This document shows, piece after piece, positions 1,071-13,575 of a stretch of 25,003 bases of DNA. Below the pieces are notes generated by a model. That model was not told the origin of the DNA. It made no database searches and saw only the letters and a program-made list of their open reading frames with translations. The stretch lies in the IMG/VR virus record IMGVR_UViG_3300021964_000491, positions 1-25,003 of that record; one strand, written 5' to 3'. This DNA comes from a virus. Made by a program: the position numbers and the translations under genes. Each line of letters starts with the position of its first letter. Within the stretch, counting starts at the first letter, position 1.

Positions 1071-1328
1071 CTAATTAATTGGATAATAATTAGTTAAATT
1101 CATCCATTGATCCCACATATCTGCATACATCTCTTCTTCGTCAACATGTATCGATACATCTTTAATTTTTTCAATATTATCTATGTAAGGTTTTAATACT
1201 TCGCATAATGTTCTAAAATGTTTCAGCTCTGACATTTCAGAAATCTGTTGAAGTTTAGAAATATTAGGATATAGCACTATGTGTGAATTATCATCAAGCT
1301 GTACTTTCAGATAATACTTCTTTTCCAT
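1071..1328 (-). CDS. Hypothetical small acidic protein (85 aa)
   Basis: The family is not recognised. The 85-residue protein begins with a likely beta-rich segment (residues 1-22). A helical middle and an acidic stretch near residues 63-70 (HVDEEEMY) follow, then a Trp-containing tail. There is no membrane or signal sequence. Its start at 1328 lies inside the end of the desaturase gene (35-base overlap), and a weak AAGGT is about 13 bases upstream, so it is probably coupled to the desaturase and ends that transcription unit. A role tied to the desaturase is possible but unsupported. Confidence 0.65.
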   Translation of the reverse strand: MEKKYYLKVQLDDNSHIVLYPNISKLQQISEMSELKHFRTLCEVLKPYIDNIEKIKDVSIHVDEEEMYADMWDQWMNLTNYYPIN

Positions 1329-2130
1329 TAACTAACTTTTTACCTTTAATTTCAATGACACCTATTTTACCTAAGAATTCCATAAACCTCGATGAATAAT
1401 CCAACCAACCTGGATTAAAACTATATGCATATGGTTTAGCATGATGTTCTTCGTGATACATGCCCTCTGGATCTCCAAAAGATAGAACCCACAAATACCA
1501 TGGAATACTACGAGTTTTAGCTTTCGTTTTATGGGCATACGCATCGATAACCCCTAATCCATGAAATTCTAAACAAGATGCTGCAGCTAAAACACTAAGA
1601 CCTTCTATACCAAAGAGAAGGATAATTAGAGACCACAATGCAAAAGCAATTGTTTTAGGATAAAGACTAAATATCCATAAATGTTTATAATTTTTCAATA
1701 AGTCAATATATATTTTTCTATCAAGTTGATCTTTACTTACAGTTGCACCCCATAGATGGAAATGTGCAGCAAACATACCAATCTGTGATGGACTATGTAA
1801 ATCTAATTCATCGTCTAAATGATCATGGTGTAATCTATGCGCAATTGCCCATTCGATAGGACCAGTTGGAAACATATGTCCAGAAACTGAAAGATACGAA
1901 GTTAACAGCATATCAACTGTTTTACTTTTAAATTTCCAGTGACCGTGGGAAATACCTTTATGTAAAAATGAAGAAACTGTAAAAGCTTGTAGTTGAAATA
2001 AACCAAATGCAACTGCTAATAGCCAGTATGATGCATCTACGTAGATGCTATTGTAAAAAAAATATATAGTCAATGCATGAGTTGCTATTGCTATAAACAA
2101 TCTTTCTGGATATTGTAAAAATTTAGGCAT
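1294..2130 (-). CDS. Membrane fatty acid desaturase (delta-9/DesC-like)
   Basis: This is a 278-residue integral membrane di-iron desaturase that would introduce a double bond into acyl chains of membrane lipids or acyl-CoA/ACP. All three histidine boxes are intact: HKGISH (57-62), HRLHH (98-102) and HEEHH (226-230). Hydrophobic segments near 12-30, 35-55, 160-175 and 176-190 fit the four-helix topology. The length is that of bacterial DesC-type enzymes, slightly short. The start at 2130 overlaps the upstream stop by 8 bases, and GAGGAG sits 8 bases upstream. It is co-transcribed with a SprT-like gene and a small acidic protein. It looks functional and would act as an auxiliary metabolic gene altering host membrane fluidity. 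The exact substrate and regiospecificity cannot be read from sequence. Confidence 0.9.
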   Translation of the reverse strand: MPKFLQYPERLFIAIATHALTIYFFYNSIYVDASYWLLAVAFGLFQLQAFTVSSFLHKGISHGHWKFKSKTVDMLLTSYLSVSGHMFPTGPIEWAIAHRLHHDHLDDELDLHSPSQIGMFAAHFHLWGATVSKDQLDRKIYIDLLKNYKHLWIFSLYPKTIAFALWSLIILLFGIEGLSVLAAASCLEFHGLGVIDAYAHKTKAKTRSIPWYLWVLSFGDPEGMYHEEHHAKPYAYSFNPGWLDYSSRFMEFLGKIGVIEIKGKKLVNGKEVLSESTA

Positions 2131-2548: not shown

Positions 2549-2577
2549 ATTATACCATATTTATAATCAACTGTAAA
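2549..2577 (-). promoter_or_regulatory. Extended -10 sigma70-type promoter inside the end of the GT42-like gene
   Basis: On the minus strand TTTACA (2577-2572) is followed by a 17-base spacer ending in ATGG and then TATAAT (2554-2549). The -35 box lies in the last codons of the upstream gene. The predicted transcript start is near 2542, the A of the next ATG. The spacer also contains TATAAATA (2565-2558), identical to the T4 late promoter -10, which could give a second start with a short leader. Which is used cannot be decided by eye. Confidence 0.78.
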
Positions 2578-3175
2578 CTTGTATTTCTACGTTTTTAGGG
2601 ATTTTAAATTTGATGGCTGAATGCTTATGATGTAATATGAACTTTGTATCTTTAAACCGCGGATCTCTAAACATATTCATCCAGATTGGTCTCCAGTTAT
2701 TGATAAGACGATTATTATTTAAATTGCCGCGATCAGAATTAATTACAAGGTCTGTATAGCTTCTCATATTAAAATCAAATATGGCATCGAATCCCCACAT
2801 ATTAATCTCTGTAGCCTTCAGTTTTTCAGCTGCATAGTACACCGCCATATGACCACAATTAAAGTCTGTATAGTTGGGTGCATATTTAGGAATCTTAGTA
2901 TAGAACTCTTTAATGTGGTGTGCAATCCTCATATGAAATTTTGGATTCCTACTGCAATATTCTTTAGGACGTGCACCAACTATCCATTCACCACCAAGCG
3001 TTACTTCTCCCTTATCAATAGCTTTCATCATTTTAAAATCTACAATGCAAGTAGCATAAGCCTTTACCTCGAACGGAGGAATATTGCATGTCAGTTTCAA
3101 ACCTTTACGTCGTTCTTTTTGATAATAAGCTACGCTATCACCGTTACCAATCACATGTACAACACGATCAGCCAT
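2567..3175 (-). CDS. GT42/DUF115-like sialyltransferase-fold protein
   Basis: This 202-residue protein opens with a strand and the turn VIGNGDS (8-14). It also has a helix-strand unit at 106-130 containing CGHMAVYYAA and ending INMWGFD. Both features resemble the CMP-sugar-binding core of GT42 sialyltransferases and DUF115/MptE-like proteins, whose second unit ends in ...GxD. A HHKH cluster at 182-185 could hold a catalytic His. It lacks the longer C-terminus of CstII. It lies last in the glycosyltransferase run, overlapping the upstream stop by 8 bases, with AGGAG 8 bases before the ATG. Transfer of a nonulosonate or other sugar is inferred, not shown. A non-enzymatic Rossmann-like role is possible. 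Confidence 0.6.
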   Translation of the reverse strand: MADRVVHVIGNGDSVAYYQKERRKGLKLTCNIPPFEVKAYATCIVDFKMMKAIDKGEVTLGGEWIVGARPKEYCSRNPKFHMRIAHHIKEFYTKIPKYAPNYTDFNCGHMAVYYAAEKLKATEINMWGFDAIFDFNMRSYTDLVINSDRGNLNNNRLINNWRPIWMNMFRDPRFKDTKFILHHKHSAIKFKIPKNVEIQVYS

Positions 3176-3836
3176 TCATCATACTCCTAATAACTTCGTT
3201 ACCCTTTGCACCTGTCCAGTGCATTACTTTGATCTTTCCTTTGTAGTCATCAAGCTCAGTTTGTAATCTCATAACATTATACTCGTTTGGCAAAGGATTA
3301 ATCCATGTCAATTGAGTAATAGGATTCAACATGCTATGTAAAACTTCTTGATCACCAACTACTGGATTCATTCGTGTACTATCTACCCATAAATGTAGGA
3401 TAGGTGGTTTATCGATAAAACCCACAACTCCAGAATTGTACCATACTTCTCCTCTTCTTTTTGTCCATGGTTTATCTTCAACCATATTCAATTTATTTGG
3501 TGCCAACTTATCAAAGATGTCATCAATATTTGCTCTGATTTCACAATCAGTGTCAATCCATACTGTGGCCCGAGATGGGCAATGTAACATTGATTGCGGT
3601 TTTAAGAACCACCCGTTCAGTTTGTCTTGATCATCATTTTGCATATTCATTACTGATTCAACAGCAGGATGGTGAATAGCTTTATTACGCATATCTTCTG
3701 ACATGCCAAAATCAGTAACTATCAACTTTGTTTTATGATTTAGACTATGGAAAGTATCTAAGAAAAATGGTAACTGCCACTCAGTTTTCTCATCGCAACC
3801 AGTTAAAAAAACTTTATCAAACATTTTCGATTGCAT
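3168..3836 (-). CDS. GT8-like (GT-A fold) glycosyltransferase
   Basis: This is a 222-residue nucleotide-sugar glycosyltransferase of the GT-A fold. The metal-binding DxD is DTD at 95-97 (VWIDTDCEI). The acceptor-side signature YNSGVVGF is at 133-140, GDQE at 161-164, and a C-terminal HWTGAKG near 209-215 resembles the HxxGxxK end of GT8 enzymes. Three in-frame ATGs are possible (3848, 3836, 3824). I chose 3836 because GGAG stands 6 bases before it, while the others lack a site; this gives a 20-base overlap with the preceding GT25 gene. It is soluble, with no signal or membrane segment. Donor and acceptor are unknown. Confidence 0.78.
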   Translation of the reverse strand: MQSKMFDKVFLTGCDEKTEWQLPFFLDTFHSLNHKTKLIVTDFGMSEDMRNKAIHHPAVESVMNMQNDDQDKLNGWFLKPQSMLHCPSRATVWIDTDCEIRANIDDIFDKLAPNKLNMVEDKPWTKRRGEVWYNSGVVGFIDKPPILHLWVDSTRMNPVVGDQEVLHSMLNPITQLTWINPLPNEYNVMRLQTELDDYKGKIKVMHWTGAKGNEVIRSMMNG

Positions 3837-4467
3837 ATGTTTCTCCATAACGATGTTTAGCTTGACACCCAGCTTCTTGTTGTATAGTAGTAAAGTTATC
3901 TGCAGCGATACAAATCCACGGATAATATTCTTCTAGCCATGGAAAGTTCTTTGTATTCATGAATACGTCAGTAGAACCAGGAGAAGTCTTTGCGGTTTCG
4001 ATCATCTCTTTTGCGCCTTCTGGTTTTACGATATAGCCATGAGCTCCACCTAAATAAGGTTTTTGAATTAGAGGCATAACTCCTACATCAACAGGCGTAT
4101 TAAATTTCCCGTATGATGGTTTAGAGAATGTCAATACTTTATCGAATTCAAGATTATCTGGTAAAGAACCAGTCATAACAGCATCATGTTCAAAGATGAT
4201 TACAGGCTCATCGATTTCAATACTGTGTTCCCACAAAGACATATGAGAGCAGAACGCTGCCATACAATTTGCAGTTCTAGAATAGATCTCGTTAAACGGG
4301 TCGAGAGGGATACCCTTTTTTTCAAGGATATGATGTGGTTTATCTTGCGGAGTAATAGCTTTCCATTGTTGTACATCTAATCCGTATTTTGCTGCAGATT
4401 TAATACATTTCTTCGAAGCTTGCACAGATCCTTCGTGCGATAATATAGTAATAACAAAAGCTTTCAT
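3817..4467 (-). CDS. GT25-family glycosyltransferase, copy 3 of a tandem trio
   Basis: This 216-residue protein opens with MKAFVITILSH, nearly the same as its two upstream neighbours. It carries the GT25 metal/donor motif FEHDA (E93-H94-D95) and a later GAHGYIVKPEGA block, matching the LPS beta-galactosyltransferase (LgtB/LpsA) family. GT25 enzymes usually add galactose or glucose to LPS or other glycans in the cytoplasm. The ATG at 4467 was preferred over 4473 because it aligns with the paralogs and has GGA 6 bases upstream. It is translationally coupled to the preceding copy. It has diverged far from its sisters, so donors or acceptors probably differ. Confidence 0.8.
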   Translation of the reverse strand: MKAFVITILSHEGSVQASKKCIKSAAKYGLDVQQWKAITPQDKPHHILEKKGIPLDPFNEIYSRTANCMAAFCSHMSLWEHSIEIDEPVIIFEHDAVMTGSLPDNLEFDKVLTFSKPSYGKFNTPVDVGVMPLIQKPYLGGAHGYIVKPEGAKEMIETAKTSPGSTDVFMNTKNFPWLEEYYPWICIAADNFTTIQQEAGCQAKHRYGETYAIENV

Positions 4468-4469
4468 TT

Positions 4470-5165
4470 TCATTCCGTTGTTGTTGATGGTAAACCTTGA
4501 ACCATAGTGTAAAACTTTTTCGTAACACCCATTTTTTTAACCAATTGCCTGCACATGATAGCATCATTTGGCCACAGCCCATATTCTTCTACGGCCTCAA
4601 TAACAGCTGTAGCTCCAGCAGGTTTAATTATATATGCGCTGTTACCAGCAAGCCCTTGTGGTATTTCAAACGAATCGATATGCGGTATAGGTGTGATAGG
4701 CTTTGTCGCTTTCTTAATTCTCTCTTTAAATAACCTTGCTTTACGTGTTGCACCGATAGGATCATTTAATCCGACGATATTATAACGAGAATCTAATATA
4801 TATTGTGGATCCAATTTATGCATGAATTTAGCATCGTGTTCTAATACAAGAATAGGTTCATTGCTATTCTGGCATTTTTGCCATAAAACATAATGACTCA
4901 ATGCGCATGCCATACGAGCTAATGGATCTTGAGTTCTATATGCAGATAATGTAAGACCAGATTTTAGGTCACGTACTTGGCCTTCCCATGGATAATTCCA
5001 CTCTAAGCCATATTCGTTCATGACATCACCGACGTCTACAGGTGTACAAGCTTCGAACTTCTCTATTTTGAAATCGTTCTTTACATGTTCTGATGATGCA
5101 ATACAATTATCAGCAGCACTCTCTGAAAGTGCATGTCCTAAGATCGTGATCACATAAGCCTTCAT
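4470..5165 (-). CDS. GT25-family glycosyltransferase, copy 2 of a tandem trio
   Basis: This 231-residue paralog of the flanking genes begins MKAYVITILGH. It has EPILVLEHDA with E109-H110-D111 as the metal/donor motif and GNSAYIIKPAGATAVIEA in the acceptor half. The order and spacing match GT25 LPS-type glycosyltransferases. It contains an insertion near residues 55-80 relative to copy 3. It starts as TAATG over the stop of copy 1, with AGAGGT before it, and its own stop overlaps the region of the next start, so the three are expressed as one coupled unit. The enzyme appears intact. Sugar and acceptor are not deducible. Confidence 0.8.
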   Translation of the reverse strand: MKAYVITILGHALSESAADNCIASSEHVKNDFKIEKFEACTPVDVGDVMNEYGLEWNYPWEGQVRDLKSGLTLSAYRTQDPLARMACALSHYVLWQKCQNSNEPILVLEHDAKFMHKLDPQYILDSRYNIVGLNDPIGATRKARLFKERIKKATKPITPIPHIDSFEIPQGLAGNSAYIIKPAGATAVIEAVEEYGLWPNDAIMCRQLVKKMGVTKKFYTMVQGLPSTTTE

Positions 5166-5854
5166 TATAAACCTCTACTTGTTTTTAAGTTTTTTCCGTT
5201 AAAACCAAAATATTCTGGTGATGCATATTCTATATTTACATTCTTACCATTGATAAAGAAATCGCTCTGATCCCACCCGTTTTTATATAGTGATTCTAAT
5301 AACCTATTTGCACCAGCTGGAGTAATAGCATATGACGCAGTTCCCGGCATTAAGCAACCGCCTTCCCAAATATTCTCTTGCCAATATCTAAAGTTATAGT
5401 TTAATTCATGGATTTCTGTATAACCTGTTTTCTTATATTCGAATGGACCAAATTTTTTACCAACGTTTCTATTATTAGCTTTCGCTGAATTGATATTCAA
5501 TACTAGTACTTCTTTGAAATCTGCATTATCCCATTTTCTCTTAGCAAGAGCATCATGTTCTAATACTATGATAGGCTCATTACTCTTTACACATTCATTC
5601 CACAGTCGAACATGATTCATAAAACAAGATTTCTTGGTAAAATATTTGTGTATATTCTCGCCTTTAAAATTATAAGCTCGGCTCGGTTCCATGACGTCAA
5701 ACTTCCAGATCTTCTCTGCTTCGTATAGCGTATCAGGAGTTGTGCCACTAAAGTATTCAACATTATAGCCATGCAGTAAGGCTGAATTCATACACTTCTC
5801 TGCTTGTTCTTCAGATTTTGTATGACCTACGATTCTAATAACAAATGTTTTCAT
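5165..5854 (-). CDS. GT25-family glycosyltransferase, copy 1 of a tandem trio
   Basis: This is a 229-residue GT25-like enzyme. It opens MKTFVIRIVGH. It has EPIIVLEHDA with E99-H100-D101, then GTASYAITPAGANRLLES, the same two signature blocks as its downstream copies. The segment between the blocks is longer and rich in Asn, Lys and aromatics. The start at 5854 overlaps the stop of the upstream methyltransferase as ATGA, with no clear ribosome site, so reinitiation is likely. The three copies have diverged strongly, suggesting an old duplication and different specificities within one glycan pathway. Confidence 0.8.
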   Translation of the reverse strand: MKTFVIRIVGHTKSEEQAEKCMNSALLHGYNVEYFSGTTPDTLYEAEKIWKFDVMEPSRAYNFKGENIHKYFTKKSCFMNHVRLWNECVKSNEPIIVLEHDALAKRKWDNADFKEVLVLNINSAKANNRNVGKKFGPFEYKKTGYTEIHELNYNFRYWQENIWEGGCLMPGTASYAITPAGANRLLESLYKNGWDQSDFFINGKNVNIEYASPEYFGFNGKNLKTSRGL

Positions 5855-6408
5855 TTTCTAAACACACACAACGAGTCAAAGTTTTCTAATACAATCTTAT
5901 CTATCGATCTCAATCCGCTGCCTTCAGCTAAACCAAGTAAATCATCATAAGTTAATTCTAATGGATCAGTATATTTAGATCTATTATTATCGCCCATAGG
6001 CAACTCTATAAACAATGTTCCAATATGTGTTAGCTGTTCACTCCACGTTTTCATACATTTTACTGGATCATAGCTATGATCGAACGAATTAGAGTATACA
6101 ATATCAAAATGGTTAATCCAATCTTTGTTTTCTTCATGAAAATCATGCTGTACAGTCATAGGAAACTGTGATGCAGTATGAGATATCTCAGTGCCTATAA
6201 CATAAGCATCTGAATATTTCTGAGTAAAGTATCGTTGCTCTGTTGCATTTCGAGTACCGTGACATAAAATGTTATTTGCAGCCGGTACAATGCTGTGAAT
6301 AAGATCAATCGTTGATTCTCTTACCCATACTTTCTTTAGCTTACGAACGTTAGCTTCAGTTTGAGCCTTCACATACTCTTCATATGATTTATATTTCCAG
6401 ATCTTCAT
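5851..6408 (-). CDS. Class I SAM-dependent methyltransferase-like protein (185 aa)
   Basis: This 185-residue protein has a class I methyltransferase layout. A degenerate motif I, CHGTRN, lies at 49-54 after a strand. An acidic-loop strand VIGTEIS (70-76) follows, then FDIVYSNSFDHSYDP (101-115), which corresponds to motif IV of Methyltransf_11-type enzymes, and a strand THIGTLFIELP at about 127-137. Motif I is not the classic GxGxG, so SAM binding is probable but not certain. It is coupled by ATGA overlaps to both neighbours, a second methyltransferase and the first GT25. Methylation of a sugar or glycan intermediate is inferred from the cassette. Confidence 0.68.
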   Translation of the reverse strand: MKIWKYKSYEEYVKAQTEANVRKLKKVWVRESTIDLIHSIVPAANNILCHGTRNATEQRYFTQKYSDAYVIGTEISHTASQFPMTVQHDFHEENKDWINHFDIVYSNSFDHSYDPVKCMKTWSEQLTHIGTLFIELPMGDNNRSKYTDPLELTYDDLLGLAEGSGLRSIDKIVLENFDSLCVFRK

Positions 6409-7016
6409 TTCTTATCATTATATACCGCTTCTTTACGATCAACCCTTTTGATAACAGTATATCCTACTCGGTGAATGTAATGATCAACAACTTGCCATTT
6501 TTGTTCAATCTGTGTGATATAGTTTGCAATCACAGGAAATAAACCATGAGTATTCTTATATTCTGCTGTATCATGGAACACAATGTACTTACGCACATGA
6601 GGTGCATGCATCTGCAATTCTTTAGCCAAATGTGGAGCTTTATGTAATGAATCAATGTGTAATACATCACATGGTTCTACACCAGCTGGATCATGACTTG
6701 ACTGTTCTCTGTATTCAAAGTCGATATTATTTTCTTCAGCATATTTTTCGAAGTGTTTTTGGTGTGGTGTAAAAAATTGTGGTTGTACATCAACACCAAT
6801 AAGTTTTTTAGGTTTAGTGAATAGTAATGCTGCGAGAGTACCACCTTGACACACACCAATCTCTTTTACGATATCTGATCCTTCTTCACTTGCACATTTA
6901 GTAAGTGCTTTATGGTGTTCTAAGTATTCTTGACTATGTGCACCAGCTTGAAGTCTACAAATCTCGCTATAGAATTCATGGATGTCTTTACAATATGTAA
7001 GATCTGGTTTAATCAT
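6405..7016 (-). CDS. Class I SAM-dependent methyltransferase (Methyltransf_24-like)
   Basis: This is a 203-residue enzyme with motif I EIGVCQGGT (52-60), post-I strand LIGVDVQP (72-79), DVLHIDSLHK (117-126) and FHDT (147-150). This is the order seen in Methyltransf_24 and cephalosporin-hydroxylase-like O-methyltransferases. ATG 7016 was chosen because it overlaps the sulfotransferase stop as ATGA and has GGAG 9 bases upstream; an upstream in-frame TTG at 7031 is less likely. With the next gene it forms a methyltransferase pair inside the glycan cassette, consistent with capping or decorating sugars. Substrate unknown. Confidence 0.76.
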   Translation of the reverse strand: MIKPDLTYCKDIHEFYSEICRLQAGAHSQEYLEHHKALTKCASEEGSDIVKEIGVCQGGTLAALLFTKPKKLIGVDVQPQFFTPHQKHFEKYAEENNIDFEYREQSSHDPAGVEPCDVLHIDSLHKAPHLAKELQMHAPHVRKYIVFHDTAEYKNTHGLFPVIANYITQIEQKWQVVDHYIHRVGYTVIKRVDRKEAVYNDKK

Positions 7017-7702
7017 TGTGTTAGTCTCCAATAGTTTTTAGTTGCACCTGTATCAAAATCAAATCCAAATGCATCAATATCCTTCTTATACCAATCAGCA
7101 ATAATTTGAATAGTTTGTGGTGTGTATAGATCTTTGTATGATCCTTTATTTAATCCTGTAACATTACGTGCTCTAGTCATTTTTTTAAGACCAAAATAAC
7201 TGCACAAATCATCATTAAGATTTTCGAATCTCATTATATCACATCTGATGTTTTCTTTTTCATCTGTCACATAATCAAATTGCGGATACCAACCTCGTAC
7301 AGCTCTATGCCACATATACTCCATTCCACCCCATTTGTGCCTATCTTCTAAGAAATGCTCAAACGAATCAAGTGGGTGTTTTCCAGCTGGCTCTTTCTTT
7401 TCTACTTCGATAACCTTCTTAGCAAAGAAATATCGTGATACGACCCTATCCCACGGATTACGTATAATAGCAAATGCACCATGTGCTTCAATAAGACTGC
7501 GTTTACAATCTCTCCATCTTGCATGCTCAAACCCGTGATGGTCGTCAATGCTATTCATATGCTTAAGCACAGCTTTAGTATACTTCTCACTCTTATGTAC
7601 CGAAGGTCCAGCGGGCATGATAGATCCGCGTAGAGCATCAGAGTGTCTTACAGTCATACCAGCATTTTTAGGTATATGAATAAAAACCTTTTTAAGAAAC
7701 AT
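7013..7702 (-). CDS. PAPS-dependent sulfotransferase
   Basis: This 229-residue protein has both PAPS-binding signatures of the sulfotransferase family. The 5'-phosphosulfate loop is IHIPKNAGMT (8-17), and the 3'-phosphate motif IIRNPWDRVVSRYFF (79-93) has R81 and S89 in the expected places. The arrangement matches carbohydrate (Sulfotransfer_2, heparan/chondroitin-type) sulfotransferases. It would transfer sulfate from PAPS to a hydroxyl, here probably of a sugar, in the cytoplasm. There is no membrane anchor. It overlaps the upstream glycosyltransferase by 11 bases and the downstream methyltransferase by 4. The family is secure; the acceptor is not known. Confidence 0.85.
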   Translation of the reverse strand: MFLKKVFIHIPKNAGMTVRHSDALRGSIMPAGPSVHKSEKYTKAVLKHMNSIDDHHGFEHARWRDCKRSLIEAHGAFAIIRNPWDRVVSRYFFAKKVIEVEKKEPAGKHPLDSFEHFLEDRHKWGGMEYMWHRAVRGWYPQFDYVTDEKENIRCDIMRFENLNDDLCSYFGLKKMTRARNVTGLNKGSYKDLYTPQTIQIIADWYKKDIDAFGFDFDTGATKNYWRLTQ

Positions 7703-8477
7703 GTTTCATCAATTCCTCAATATTTTCGCCTTGATTAGGCAACTTATCCTTTAAGAAGAAGTGCACGAAATGCGACTTCAACATATCGTTATTACTTATA
7801 GCAGAATAAAGTGCGTTCCATTTCCAATTCAATCTTTGCACATTTACTTTATTCTTAGCAAACCAATAATTTAGTGTTATCTGATCTGATTGCCATTTTA
7901 ACGGACCAATACCATTGATAAAGTCTTCTAACATTGGTTGCGATAAAAACTTTTTAGGACTCATACCTTCGAGTTCAGATTTCATCTTAGATGAATTATA
8001 TAACATAACACCAGAATTAAAGAAGGAATATCCTGTCCGCGGTTTAAATTCCCAATCGAGTTTAAACATTTGAATCATACGAGAATATGCTGCAATCTTA
8101 TTAGCATATGCATCGTTTATAGGTAAATCACACTCATACACACTACTCACTGTAGATCCATCTGATTCAGCAAAAATATCTGGTGCTGTAGGTCGCACAT
8201 ATATGTCAGCATCAATCACACAGCATTGATCATACTTATAGAAATAATTAAACACATTTTCTTTCTCAAAGATAGGCATATAACCGTGTTTTTTCCAGCC
8301 ACCAGTTTTACCTTCTCTTTGATTCAAAAATGGATTAGGTGTAATTTTAAGTATAGGGACCTTTTGCACGATATAATCTGCACCGATACGATCAGCATAT
8401 TCTTTTACAGATTGCGTGCAATGATCATAAAGCCGTGATCTATTTCCTAGATATACTTGATATATTAGTTTACTCAT
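7692..8477 (-). CDS. GT-A fold glycosyltransferase, second of a paralogous pair
   Basis: This 261-residue protein opens MSKLIYQVYLG. It has the metal-binding DAD at 89-91 (CCVIDADIYVR), FFNSGVMLYN at 152-161, SDQITLNYW at 197-205 and a C-terminal HFVHFF (236-241). These resemble GT8-like or GT-A nucleotide-sugar transferases. It is an obvious paralog of the gene immediately upstream, with the same motifs in the same order throughout. The start overlaps that gene's stop as ATGA. It is cytoplasmic by sequence. Donor and acceptor unknown; the class-level call is firm. Confidence 0.78.
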   Translation of the reverse strand: MSKLIYQVYLGNRSRLYDHCTQSVKEYADRIGADYIVQKVPILKITPNPFLNQREGKTGGWKKHGYMPIFEKENVFNYFYKYDQCCVIDADIYVRPTAPDIFAESDGSTVSSVYECDLPINDAYANKIAAYSRMIQMFKLDWEFKPRTGYSFFNSGVMLYNSSKMKSELEGMSPKKFLSQPMLEDFINGIGPLKWQSDQITLNYWFAKNKVNVQRLNWKWNALYSAISNNDMLKSHFVHFFLKDKLPNQGENIEELMKHVS

Positions 8478-9271
8478 GATACCGTTTCAATCAAACTATT
8501 CATATTACTGGCATATGTACCCAATCTCGCAGATTGGAAGAAGTGCACAAAATGCGAATCTTTAACAAACTCCTCTTTGACACCACCAAAATTAGGGTTG
8601 TATAAACAGTTCCATTTCCAACTCAAATTCTTCACCGCCATACGTTCTTCTTTAATCCATGTGTTGAGCAAAGTTTGATCTGTGCTCCACTTCCATGCAC
8701 CTACACCATCAACGAATGGCTTAAATTCTGGTCTTCGTAAGAATTGATGCGGAGTTTGGCCTTTAATATATTTAGTAATGCTTTCATTCATTACCATCAA
8801 ACCCATGTTTATAAACTCAGCACCACTTTTCTTATCCCATTTCCAATCAACTTTGATTGACCGGTATTGTTCTTCAGAATAATTTTTGATTCGGGCTCTA
8901 TATGCGTTGGTGATAGGCATATCTCGTTCAGGTACACCACCAAAATCAAATCCTTTAGGCAATTCTTCAAAGATATTTGGTGCACCAGGACGAATCCATA
9001 TATCTGAATCGACAATGGCTATTTGATCATACTTAGGCCAGTATGAAAACGCATTTTCTTTTTCAAAGATAGGAAGAAATCCACCATACTTTTCCCAAGC
9101 TGATGGATGCCGATTTGTAGAGAACAAATCTGGTTTAATTCGCAAGACCGGTTCGCGCTGGATTACGTGATCAATGCCATATGTCTTACAATACTCTGCA
9201 ACAGAATTTGTGCAGTACTCATATAGTTTATTCTTTGATCCCAGGTATACCTGGTAAATCATCCTTTTCAT
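8474..9271 (-). CDS. GT-A fold glycosyltransferase, first of a paralogous pair
   Basis: This 265-residue protein opens MKRMIYQVYLGS and parallels its downstream neighbour. It has DSD at 88-90 (IAIVDSDIWIRPGAPNIF), FINMGLMVMN at 153-162, STDQTLLNTW at 196-205 and HFVHFF at 240-245. The pair looks like a tandem duplication followed by divergence. The start at 9271 has AGAGGT 5 bases upstream. It opens the glycan cassette proper, 8 bases after a small exported-protein gene, so the cassette is probably read from the promoter at 10728. The second Asn-Ser of the usual NSG is Asn-Met here, a mild change near the acceptor site. Confidence 0.78.
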   Translation of the reverse strand: MKRMIYQVYLGSKNKLYEYCTNSVAEYCKTYGIDHVIQREPVLRIKPDLFSTNRHPSAWEKYGGFLPIFEKENAFSYWPKYDQIAIVDSDIWIRPGAPNIFEELPKGFDFGGVPERDMPITNAYRARIKNYSEEQYRSIKVDWKWDKKSGAEFINMGLMVMNESITKYIKGQTPHQFLRRPEFKPFVDGVGAWKWSTDQTLLNTWIKEERMAVKNLSWKWNCLYNPNFGGVKEEFVKDSHFVHFFQSARLGTYASNMNSLIETVS

Positions 9272-9279
9272 GATAACCT

Positions 9280-9477
9280 CTAATAACGAAGTAGATAATC
9301 CCAGTCGCCTTCAATTCTTATGCAGACCCAATCTCTCTTCATGGTTCTAAATTCGTATTTAAACTCTTGTTCAGTTATAGCAACATAACAATCCGCTCTA
9401 CCATTATATGTATATACTTCTTCAGCCACCGGTGCACCGTTTACAACAGTGACCATGACTAACATCCACTTTACCAT
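9280..9477 (-). CDS. Small probable exported protein (65 aa)
   Basis: This 65-residue protein has a short basic-then-hydrophobic start (MVKWMLVMVTVV) and NGA near residue 15, like a minimal signal peptide. Two cysteines (30 and 52) could form a disulfide in the periplasm. It has several Trp and Tyr residues and no recognised domain. The start overlaps the EF-hand gene's stop as TAATG. It resembles in layout, though not clearly in sequence, the 73-aa gene at 19479-19700. Function unknown. Confidence 0.62.
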   Translation of the reverse strand: MVKWMLVMVTVVNGAPVAEEVYTYNGRADCYVAITEQEFKYEFRTMKRDWVCIRIEGDWDYLLRY

Positions 9478-9821
9478 TATTTTCTAGGCGGTGTTGGCTT
9501 TTTACCCTTCACTGCATCTGCGCCAAAGAAAGCGGCCACTAACACAGAAATAGAAACAAAATAAGTTGGTGCAATATCACTTATAAGTTGCGCCGCTTTA
9601 TCTTGTCCCATAATAGTTGTAACTAAAATAATTGCTGGATAGAGTAACATACCAAACAGTGCAAACCAAGTCATTTTTCTCATAGCATCACGTTGTGCAT
9701 CAGCATCTTCAAGTTCTTTACGTTTAAACTCGAGATGCATTTCAAGTTCTTCTGCAGATATATGCCCATCACCATTGGTGTCAGCATCATCCAAACCCTC
9801 GATTGTCTTCGTGTCTACCAT
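9477..9821 (-). CDS. EF-hand-containing two-helix membrane protein
   Basis: This 114-residue protein carries one canonical EF-hand loop, D14-T-N16-G-D18-G-H20-I-S22-A-E-E25. A charged helix (residues 28-50) follows, then two hydrophobic segments (about 51-71 and 84-101) and a basic Pro-rich tail. The start at 9821 was chosen because GGAG lies 7 bases upstream; longer forms up to 9908 lack a site. It overlaps the preceding gene by 35 bases. Calcium-dependent membrane association or gating is a natural reading. With two membrane helices and small size, a holin-like or superinfection-related role is possible, but it is not next to the spanins. Confidence 0.7.
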   Translation of the reverse strand: MVDTKTIEGLDDADTNGDGHISAEELEMHLEFKRKELEDADAQRDAMRKMTWFALFGMLLYPAIILVTTIMGQDKAAQLISDIAPTYFVSISVLVAAFFGADAVKGKKPTPPRK

Positions 9822-10014
9822 ACTCGTACTCCGTAATAATTGCTTCGGCAATTTCATATGCCTCTTGATAACCATTACGAAGTGAATTGGACTTATGGCC
9901 ATTTTCAATAAACCACTTAAGAGTATTTATATCAGAGCCCTGATGTTCGAGTTTAAAGTCTTCAGTTGTTTCTTCAAACCGCGTTCTTAATTTTAGTATT
10001 TCGCCAATTGACAT
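9787..10014 (-). CDS. Hypothetical small acidic helical protein (75 aa)
   Basis: The family is not recognised. The 75-residue protein is predicted mostly helical with alternating charge (residues 8-24 and 48-66) and has no membrane segment. The start at 10014 is supported by an excellent GGAGG site 5 bases upstream, and it overlaps the end of the nucleotidase gene by 22 bases. It overlaps the following EF-hand gene by 35 bases. It is part of the run from the promoter at 10728. Probably a real accessory gene of unknown role. Confidence 0.68.
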   Translation of the reverse strand: MSIGEILKLRTRFEETTEDFKLEHQGSDINTLKWFIENGHKSNSLRNGYQEAYEIAEAIITEYEYGRHEDNRGFG

Positions 10015-12476: not shown

Positions 12477-12505
12477 ATTATACCAAATTTTTGAATTATT
12501 GTACA
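12477..12505 (-). promoter_or_regulatory. Extended -10 sigma70-type promoter, TGTACA-17-TATAAT
   Basis: On the minus strand TGTACA is at 12505-12500, and the 17-base spacer ends in TTGG. A perfect TATAAT is at 12482-12477. The -35 box overlaps the last codons of the QueC-like gene ending at 12496. The predicted start is near 12470, with GAGGT in the short leader of the 189-aa gene. Confidence 0.82.
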
Positions 12506-12999
12506 TAGCCAATTCTTTCGAAAGCCCATTGTTTTTCTTTACACTGGTCACATTCCATGCATTCATCTTTAGTAATATCATTAAGTTCACATGAATTAGT
12601 ATAATCTATGAGATGCATGATTTTATAATGCTGCATCCTACGAAGTACCTGATCTTTAGTCATATGTTCATACGGCATCTTAATCATACCATAAGATTTT
12701 ATTCTCTTAATATCCATATGATCAGGGTATTTAGTTGTACCAAAATATAAACTACTTAATCTTTTTTCTTGTATTACCTTGCCATATTGAATCATATATG
12801 TACTATTATTAGCATCTGGTATTAAGACATGTTCAACCCTTTTTCCAGTTATTTTTTCTAAAATGCTTATAACACGTTTAGCATATATTTTTGTATCTTT
12901 CCAATCAGCAGTTATAAAACATAAATCATTATGTTGCAGCATTAGTTCATATGCCAAACACGTAGAATCTATGCCTCCTGAAAATGCTAAACCTATCAT
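12496..12999 (-). CDS. QueC-like PP-loop ATPase, copy 2
   Basis: This 167-residue protein has the ATP-pyrophosphatase loop SGGIDST at 7-13 and four C-terminal cysteines, C137, C147, C150 and C153. The C-x9-C-x2-C-x2-C spacing is close to the zinc site of QueC, which makes preQ0 (7-cyano-7-deazaguanine) from carboxy-deazaguanine. The tail after the cysteines (KEKQWAFERIG) also follows the QueC pattern. It is about 60 residues shorter than E. coli QueC, mostly in the middle. ATG 12999 was chosen for the ATGA overlap with copy 1; an upstream ATG at 13020 is out of register with the PP-loop start. Substrate may differ from QueC. Confidence 0.78.
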   Translation of the reverse strand: MIGLAFSGGIDSTCLAYELMLQHNDLCFITADWKDTKIYAKRVISILEKITGKRVEHVLIPDANNSTYMIQYGKVIQEKRLSSLYFGTTKYPDHMDIKRIKSYGMIKMPYEHMTKDQVLRRMQHYKIMHLIDYTNSCELNDITKDECMECDQCKEKQWAFERIGYVQ

Positions 13000-13514
13000 G
13001 ATATTTGTTCTAAAGCCCACTTTCTCTCATTACAATGAAAACAAATATTGCAAACTGGACCAAACGGAATCGTGCACGATCTAGTCATATCTAATAATGT
13101 GTTAAAATTTGGTATCATTATTTTGCCAATGTAACATACTTCTGCTTTAGTCATTTTATAAAACGGAAATTTACATATAGTATTTTCTGATACTTCAATC
13201 ACTTCATCATGTGCTAATCTTTTTGTACTAGTACTATTGTCGACCTTAATTAACAAAGTATCACCGTAGTATAGTTCTTCGACTTCATTCCTTACACTAG
13301 CAATATAACCAACCCAAGTAGGAACACTTTTATCAGCATATATAAAGTTAGATCTTTGAATATTCAGATAATCTGTTATTGCATTTACTCGAGTCTCATC
13401 ACCTACATGTTCATCAACATGTGTATAAGGTATAACTTCATAATGAGTTGACAATAAAGCTGCTAGTATTGTGGAGTCTAAACCACCAGATAACGCTACG
13501 CCAACCTTCTTCAT
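12996..13514 (-). CDS. QueC-like PP-loop ATPase, copy 1
   Basis: This 172-residue protein has SGGLDST at 9-15 and the zinc-type cluster C147-x7-C155-x2-C158-x2-C161, ending in CNERKWALEQIS. The KMTKAEV segment (120-126) matches the conserved P-x-x-x-x-TKxE helix of QueC. It and the next gene are diverged paralogs. ATG 13514 is preferred over the upstream ATG at 13559, because the latter overlaps the -10 box and an AGAGGT lies 9 bases before 13514. A role in making a 7-deazaguanine for DNA or tRNA modification is the family expectation. No folE, queD or queE is present in the window to confirm it. Confidence 0.8.
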   Translation of the reverse strand: MKKVGVALSGGLDSTILAALLSTHYEVIPYTHVDEHVGDETRVNAITDYLNIQRSNFIYADKSVPTWVGYIASVRNEVEELYYGDTLLIKVDNSTSTKRLAHDEVIEVSENTICKFPFYKMTKAEVCYIGKIMIPNFNTLLDMTRSCTIPFGPVCNICFHCNERKWALEQIS

Positions 13515-13547
13515 ATGGGTACTACCTCTGCTCAAATGATAATATTT

Positions 13548-13575
13548 ATTATACCACATGGGCCGAGATAGTACA
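13548..13575 (-). promoter_or_regulatory. Extended -10 sigma70-type promoter for the QueC-like pair
   Basis: On the minus strand TATAAT is at 13553-13548, preceded by GTGG. The best -35 is TGTACT at 13575-13570 with a 16-base spacer, one shorter than its siblings. The expected start near 13541 gives a leader of roughly 27 bases with AGAGGT before ATG 13514. Confidence 0.7.

Follow-up and report, generated by a model that had tools for sequence, protein, structure and literature searches.

Organization of the cassette

The window analyzed here is a 25,003-base IMG/VR virus record, a fragment, and positions 2567–9271 of its minus strand hold ten adjacent intact open frames in which each pair of neighbors overlaps by 1 to 32 nt, in agreement with the ten coupled genes reported by a first-pass annotation. 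In order of transcription these are J, I, H, G, F, E, D, C, B, and A, and they encode seven glycosyltransferase-like enzymes, one PAPS sulfotransferase, and two methyltransferases; the title of that annotation counted six glycosyltransferases, although its own list gives seven. Below, J, D, C, B, and A are called frame genes and the genes between J and D interior genes. The features are as follows.

9924..9931 (−), candidate T4-type late-promoter octamer, TATAAATA, for a unit made up of the EF-hand gene and the cassette
9787..10014 (−), small upstream ORF (75 aa), with the octamer inside its coding region (translation, wobble analysis)
9477..9821 (−), protein with an EF-hand and a hydrophobic C-terminal segment (Pfam; start probably at an internal ATG)
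9280..9477 (−), small ORF (65 aa) separating the EF-hand gene from J
8474..9271 (−), J, GT-A glycosyltransferase, frame gene (AlphaFold model, fold comparison, DxD)
7692..8477 (−), I, paralog of J, interior gene (41% identity to J)
7013..7702 (−), H, PAPS-dependent sulfotransferase, interior gene (Sulfotransfer_2, phrog_3347, motifs)
6405..7031 (−), G, class I methyltransferase, interior gene (Methyltransf_24 just below cut-off)
5851..6408 (−), F, class I methyltransferase, interior gene (weak Methyltransf_31 and _11)
5165..5854 (−), E, GT25 glycosyltransferase, interior gene (PF01755, 45.4 bits)
4470..5165 (−), D, GT25 glycosyltransferase, frame gene (PF01755, 52 bits)
3817..4473 (−), C, GT25 glycosyltransferase, frame gene (PF01755, 44.3 bits)
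3168..3848 (−), B, GT8-like glycosyltransferase, frame gene (glycogenin profile match, DxD, HWTGxKG)
2567..3175 (−), A, GT42/Maf (DUF115)-like transferase, frame gene (AlphaFold model, fold comparison)

The EF-hand assignment comes from Pfam (E 9e-6), and this gene, which precedes J in many relatives, is often the first of the unit. Hydrophobic segments are absent from A–J, none of which contains a 19-residue stretch with mean hydropathy above 1.3. An FkbM-type methyltransferase said to lie nearby was not recovered when nearly all other genes of the window were scanned against Pfam and PHROGs. A fatty-acid-desaturase-like gene (1294–2130, minus strand) comes after the cassette and a metallopeptidase-like gene.

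Enzyme families, folds, and motifs

The family assignments proposed earlier hold to different degrees. The three GT25 enzymes and the sulfotransferase stand above their Pfam gathering cut-offs (24 bits for PF01755; 36.9 against 22 bits for H and Sulfotransfer_2, PF03567), and H also matches phrog_3347 (E 4e-12). The two methyltransferases fall below theirs, G only slightly (Methyltransf_24, E 2e-5) and F with weak matches. In the window sequence, the PAPS-binding 5'-PSB and 3'-PB motifs of H read PKNAGM and RNPWDRVVS, and the strict patterns recur in 62 and 52 of 74 relatives, respectively; a sequence search of the PDB with H gave no match. The GT25 enzymes of LPS synthesis carry an acidic E-D-D metal motif, which may or may not be defining. 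The corresponding region reads EHD in nearly all members of the three cassette families (61/63 for D, 41/41 for C, and 17/19 for E).

Neither A, B, I, nor J has a meaningful Pfam match. The AlphaFold model of J (pLDDT 94.8) has its best fold match, at Z 17.2, in the A64R domain of PBCV-1, followed by UGGT and LgtC, all of them GT-A enzymes; J and I, at 41% identity, agree with the pair of paralogous GT-A transferases that had been described. For A, no family was found in Pfam at E 1, including GT42 and Maf (PF01973), and a sequence search of the PDB returned chance-level rows only. Its model (pLDDT 94.1) nonetheless lies closest to Maf (5mu5, Z 11.8), with the CstII sialyltransferase at about 10, above most others, while Foldseek by itself reached only E 0.02. 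Judged by its modeled fold, A works like GT42/Maf enzymes without belonging to either family by Pfam, which fits the earlier label of a GT42/DUF115-like enzyme. The GT8-like label of B is less secure, being carried by a weak match of its family profile to glycogenin (GT8; E 0.006) with no Pfam GT8 match. The key motifs, described as intact, are indeed widely kept, with DxD in 94 of 95 J relatives, GNG in all 43 A relatives, and DxD and HWTGxKG in 32 and 34 of 40 B relatives. Together with the sugar-nucleotide enzymes that replace interior genes in relatives, these families, folds, and motifs lend good support to the idea that the cassette builds and caps a glycan.

A fixed frame and an exchangeable interior

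A DNA similarity search of 50,697 phage records returned nothing, and a protein search of the same scope with J gave no match at 1e-5. In contrast, 2.9 million uncultured viral contigs encode at least 176 relatives of H, 109 of J, and 560 of A. Uncultured marine T4-like phages often carry the cassette, which is almost missing from the 50,697 records, so that its description as unusual is apt for cultured phages and not for uncultured marine viral contigs.

To compare loci, we took 65 non-redundant ones, with near-identical loci removed, in which A is present with at least 9 kb upstream. Frame genes are seldom missing from them (C in 65, D in 64, B in 62, and J in 56), where the selection of loci by J, H, or A biases the presence of these three genes while leaving B, C, and D unbiased in both presence and order. 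The order J, D, C, B, A holds in 65/65 loci and B adjoins A in 61/65, a co-conservation far above chance. The first-pass annotation had named scattered homologs as grounds against its reading; the outer genes are instead kept together.

The frame is fixed, whereas what lies between J and D can be exchanged. H occurs in 31 of the 65 loci, G in 16, and I, F, and E in 9 each, and other loci have in their stead further methyltransferases, extra transferases, NAD-dependent epimerases, and nucleotidyltransferases, with a cytidylyltransferase, a HAD-nucleotidyltransferase fusion, and a RuBisCO-like protein among the further interior genes. In pairwise distances, A, B, and D track the phage backbone gene p461 (Spearman 0.58, 0.46, and 0.58), and H hardly agrees with any other gene tested (0.06–0.27); because the loci are related to each other, these correlations are descriptive only.

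Some loci depart from this plan. The RuBisCO-large-like protein (PF00016, E 2e-24) lies inside the cassette of one phage (L028:11305–12369, plus strand), with a matching gene in a related phage (L055) and neighbors of unknown function. A second lineage (L113, L119, L138, and L148–L151) has J and a distant D without C, B, and A; in its loci there is also a DUF115/MptE-like gene, and a CMP-sugar synthetase-like domain is fused to RraA. In one phage that bears gp42 (G025, the contig of L282; 100464–101061), A is in two open pieces, as by a frameshift.

A candidate late-promoter octamer upstream of the cassette

The T4 late promoter is TATAAAT (PMC3037559). In the window, TATAAATA lies at 9931–9924, between the nucleotidase gene and the EF-hand gene that precedes J. 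Of 61 non-redundant loci, 46 have the octamer no more than 250 nt upstream of the EF-hand gene, compared with 8 octamers in 450 kb inside J through A (66 loci). Counting against a promoter, the octamer lies within coding sequence, and 12 of 52 loci have a variant of it. A nucleotidase promoter had been proposed for the run of genes. This proposal did not hold up: the octamer lies beyond the end of the nucleotidase gene, none of 35 loci has it upstream of NT5C, and sigma-70-like matches are no more frequent than expected by chance. A matching octamer just after A (2558–2565) was dismissed as a site, as it is conserved in only 3 of 95 cases.

We rejected the notion that the octamer is an intergenic site, since it lies inside a conserved small gene, and its location within coding sequence required that wobble positions be compared before a constraint on the nucleotides could be accepted. 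In the three codons that cover the octamer, the wobble base is fixed (T in 44/45, A in 44/45, and T in 45/45) while the amino acids vary, and neighboring wobble positions are free. The isoleucine codon in the octamer is ATA in 44 of 45 loci against a share of 25.8% in these loci, and serine codons at the octamer are AGY in 13 of 13 against a share of 34%. This pattern of codon usage indicates that the octamer is held by a constraint at the nucleotide level.

In a cassette-phage relative of 152.7 kb (G001), the octamer precedes the genes for the tail sheath, portal, head protease, neck adaptor, and baseplate tube cap and is absent from the replication genes at 28–49 kb. This phage also encodes a gp55-like sigma factor (3e-20) and a gp33 co-activator (4e-27). 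The total number of octamers in G001 is not above Markov expectation, and the argument for a late promoter therefore rests on position and constraint. By these two measures, the octamer suggests that the cassette is expressed late.

Candidate acceptors of the glycan

We favor the reading that, in a T4-like marine myophage, the cassette serves as a unit for glycan assembly that is transcribed late and has a virion protein as its acceptor, and put its chances at about even. Host RNA polymerase, modified by the phage, would start at TATAAATA (9931–9924) and transcribe the EF-hand gene followed by the genes from J to A. A conserved core oligosaccharide would be the product of J, D, C, B, and A; the enzymes of the interior, in this window I, H, G, F, and E, could lengthen it and cap it with sulfate and methyl groups, and might be swapped between phages like serotype genes. 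We infer this division of labor between core and cap, and likewise the donor sugars. A surface protein of the virion would be glycosylated in the cytoplasm before lysis; such a protein is the most likely acceptor because the ten enzymes are soluble and are probably transcribed with structural genes. The best VIA structural match of J, an enzyme that glycosylates the PBCV-1 capsid, points the same way. However, a fold like that of J is also found in GT24, GT8, and further GT-A enzymes, whose targets are many, and many cassette phages also carry enzymes for DNA-base modification. Glycine-rich tail proteins were considered as the acceptor and set aside: they lie directly upstream of the EF-hand gene in two cases only, G036 and L109, which is too few.

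Enzymes of the GT8, GT25, and GT42 types are typical of the synthesis and extension of the lipooligosaccharide outer core. The cassette enzymes could on that ground instead remodel the surface glycan of the infected host, either the lipooligosaccharide core or the O-chain, at the cytoplasmic face, and thereby block superinfection or keep progeny from sticking to debris. Late expression is compatible with such a target, and the glycosyltransferase islands of pelagimyophages have been proposed to modify the host O-chain (PMC7029224). Yet the cassette includes no membrane-bound initiating transferase, flippase, or gtrA-like protein, and the lack of hydrophobic segments in its enzymes argues against a gtr-type or flippase-dependent system; O-antigen conversion of the gtrA/gtrB type couples a transferase to polytopic membrane proteins, and A–J include none. 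Such remodeling would also require a whole core-building frame on top of that of the host. We regard a host surface target as unlikely, albeit the main rival to a virion protein.

A third possibility is that the glycan is built on modified bases of the phage DNA, starting from 5-hydroxymethylcytosine. Cassette phages for which enough sequence is available frequently have an enzyme that makes this base. Five cassette-phage records (G001, G002, G011, G014, and G015) and two further records selected by gp42 have a gp42-like dCMP hydroxymethylase with its catalytic Asp, TET/JBP enzymes occur in G004 and in phage C48C1 (for which we found no report in the open-access literature), and G002 has a relative of the T4 alpha-glucosyltransferase, which G001 lacks; G006 has a divergent TS-fold protein. 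The basic character of J, A, and H (median pI 8.8–9.0) also counted in favor of DNA. Seven isolated marine T4-like phages have neither a gp42-like nor a TET/JBP enzyme, and neither A nor J. DNA with 5-hydroxymethylcytosine was at first a strong candidate for a fixed acceptor and was weakened by G036, a near-complete genome of 141 kb found through the neutral marker p461. G036 has the frame, J and A included, without gp42 or TET (no match to phrog_160 or PF12851), so that an enzyme making 5-hydroxymethylcytosine is not present in every cassette genome. In the syntenic place, it has instead a set of the 7-deazaguanine type, GTP cyclohydrolase I (FolE; 5e-59) and a QueE-like protein (3e-46); QueD and DpdA were not confirmed in it by a PDB sequence search. 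Since the type of DNA modification seems to vary while the frame stays, a fixed hydroxymethylcytosine anchor is unlikely. The window itself has two QueC-like genes, and three long contigs with gp42 have neither A nor J. T4 DNA glucosyltransferases act during replication, at odds with the late expression suggested by the octamer. We consider a glycan on DNA bases quite improbable. With such an anchor unlikely and a late-promoter octamer in place, a virion protein is favored over the host surface.

Two further observations concern base-modification genes. The QueC-like genes of the window are adjacent PP-loop genes of the 7-deazaguanine pathway (12496–13559, minus strand), also present in the nearest relative (L002), and suggest 7-deazaguanine modification of DNA or tRNA in this phage. 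In G002, an uncultured marine phage, one stretch (L159:6286–10036, plus strand) holds a UDP-glucose dehydrogenase, the gp42-like dCMP hydroxymethylase, a dCMP deaminase, and the relative of the T4 alpha-glucosyltransferase.

If the acceptor is a virion protein, the late operon with its fixed core frame and exchangeable decorating interior could amount to a phage serotype system, in which a sulfated and methylated virion coat would differ between close relatives; this proposal is tentative and somewhat short of an even chance. It would be comparable to bacterial O-antigen loci, except that the virus particle would be coated. Common uncultured ocean phages would then cover their particles in self-made, strain-specific sulfated glycans, with effects on particle charge, adsorption, grazing, and recognition, and would offer a counterpart among prokaryotic viruses to the glycans of chloroviruses. 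With a fixed order, defined frame genes, and an octamer to go by, the idea is testable.

Comparison with known systems

Virus-encoded glycan assembly is a known kind of system. Enzymes encoded by chloroviruses glycosylate the capsid protein in the cytoplasm, and nearly all chloroviruses share a conserved core (PMC7826918); the cassette genes likewise encode soluble glycosyltransferases clustered with methyltransferases. PBCV-1 (A064R, A111/114R) shares virus-encoded glycosyltransferases, a methyltransferase, and cytoplasmic action; a conserved core chain with variable outer parts is a further likeness, which for the cassette is a proposal from its genes, and the A64R domain is the best VIA structural match of J. 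Unlike PBCV-1, the cassette belongs to a tailed bacterial phage, consists of separate small enzymes of other families, includes a sulfotransferase, and has a putative acceptor.

Pelagimyophages are also marine T4-like phages with several glycosyltransferases, GT8 prominent among them, that lie mostly in or near the tail-fiber island for host recognition or else form groups of two or three (PMC7029224). The cassette, by comparison, is ordered, has a fixed frame, and sits beside RNR and exonuclease genes, and pelagimyophage HTVC008M has no match to A or J. Mycobacterium phages bear glycans on the C termini of capsid and tail-tube proteins (Freeman et al. 2023, cited in PMC12619734), and phage-encoded glycosylation of virion proteins is what we propose for the cassette; the citing account in PMC12619734 describes no fixed-frame cassette with a sulfotransferase. 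Phage DNA hypermodification, by T4 alpha-glucosyltransferase or TET-linked transferases, shares phage glycosyltransferases with the cassette, and many cassette phages have base-hydroxylating enzymes. The cassette differs in having no fixed base-hydroxylating partner, as G036 shows, and in its late-promoter octamer. As far as searches of the open-access literature go, the frame-and-interior organization, the sulfotransferase, and the embedded late promoter are undescribed, and no report of phage sulfotransferases was found there.

In cyanophages S-PRM1 and S-8S56 (L417 and L418), GT25-region proteins are encoded beside 2OG-Fe(II) oxygenase genes, and that of S-8S56 also lies beside a tail-fiber-like feature. 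These neighborhoods suggest a hydroxylation-linked glycosylation of fibers.
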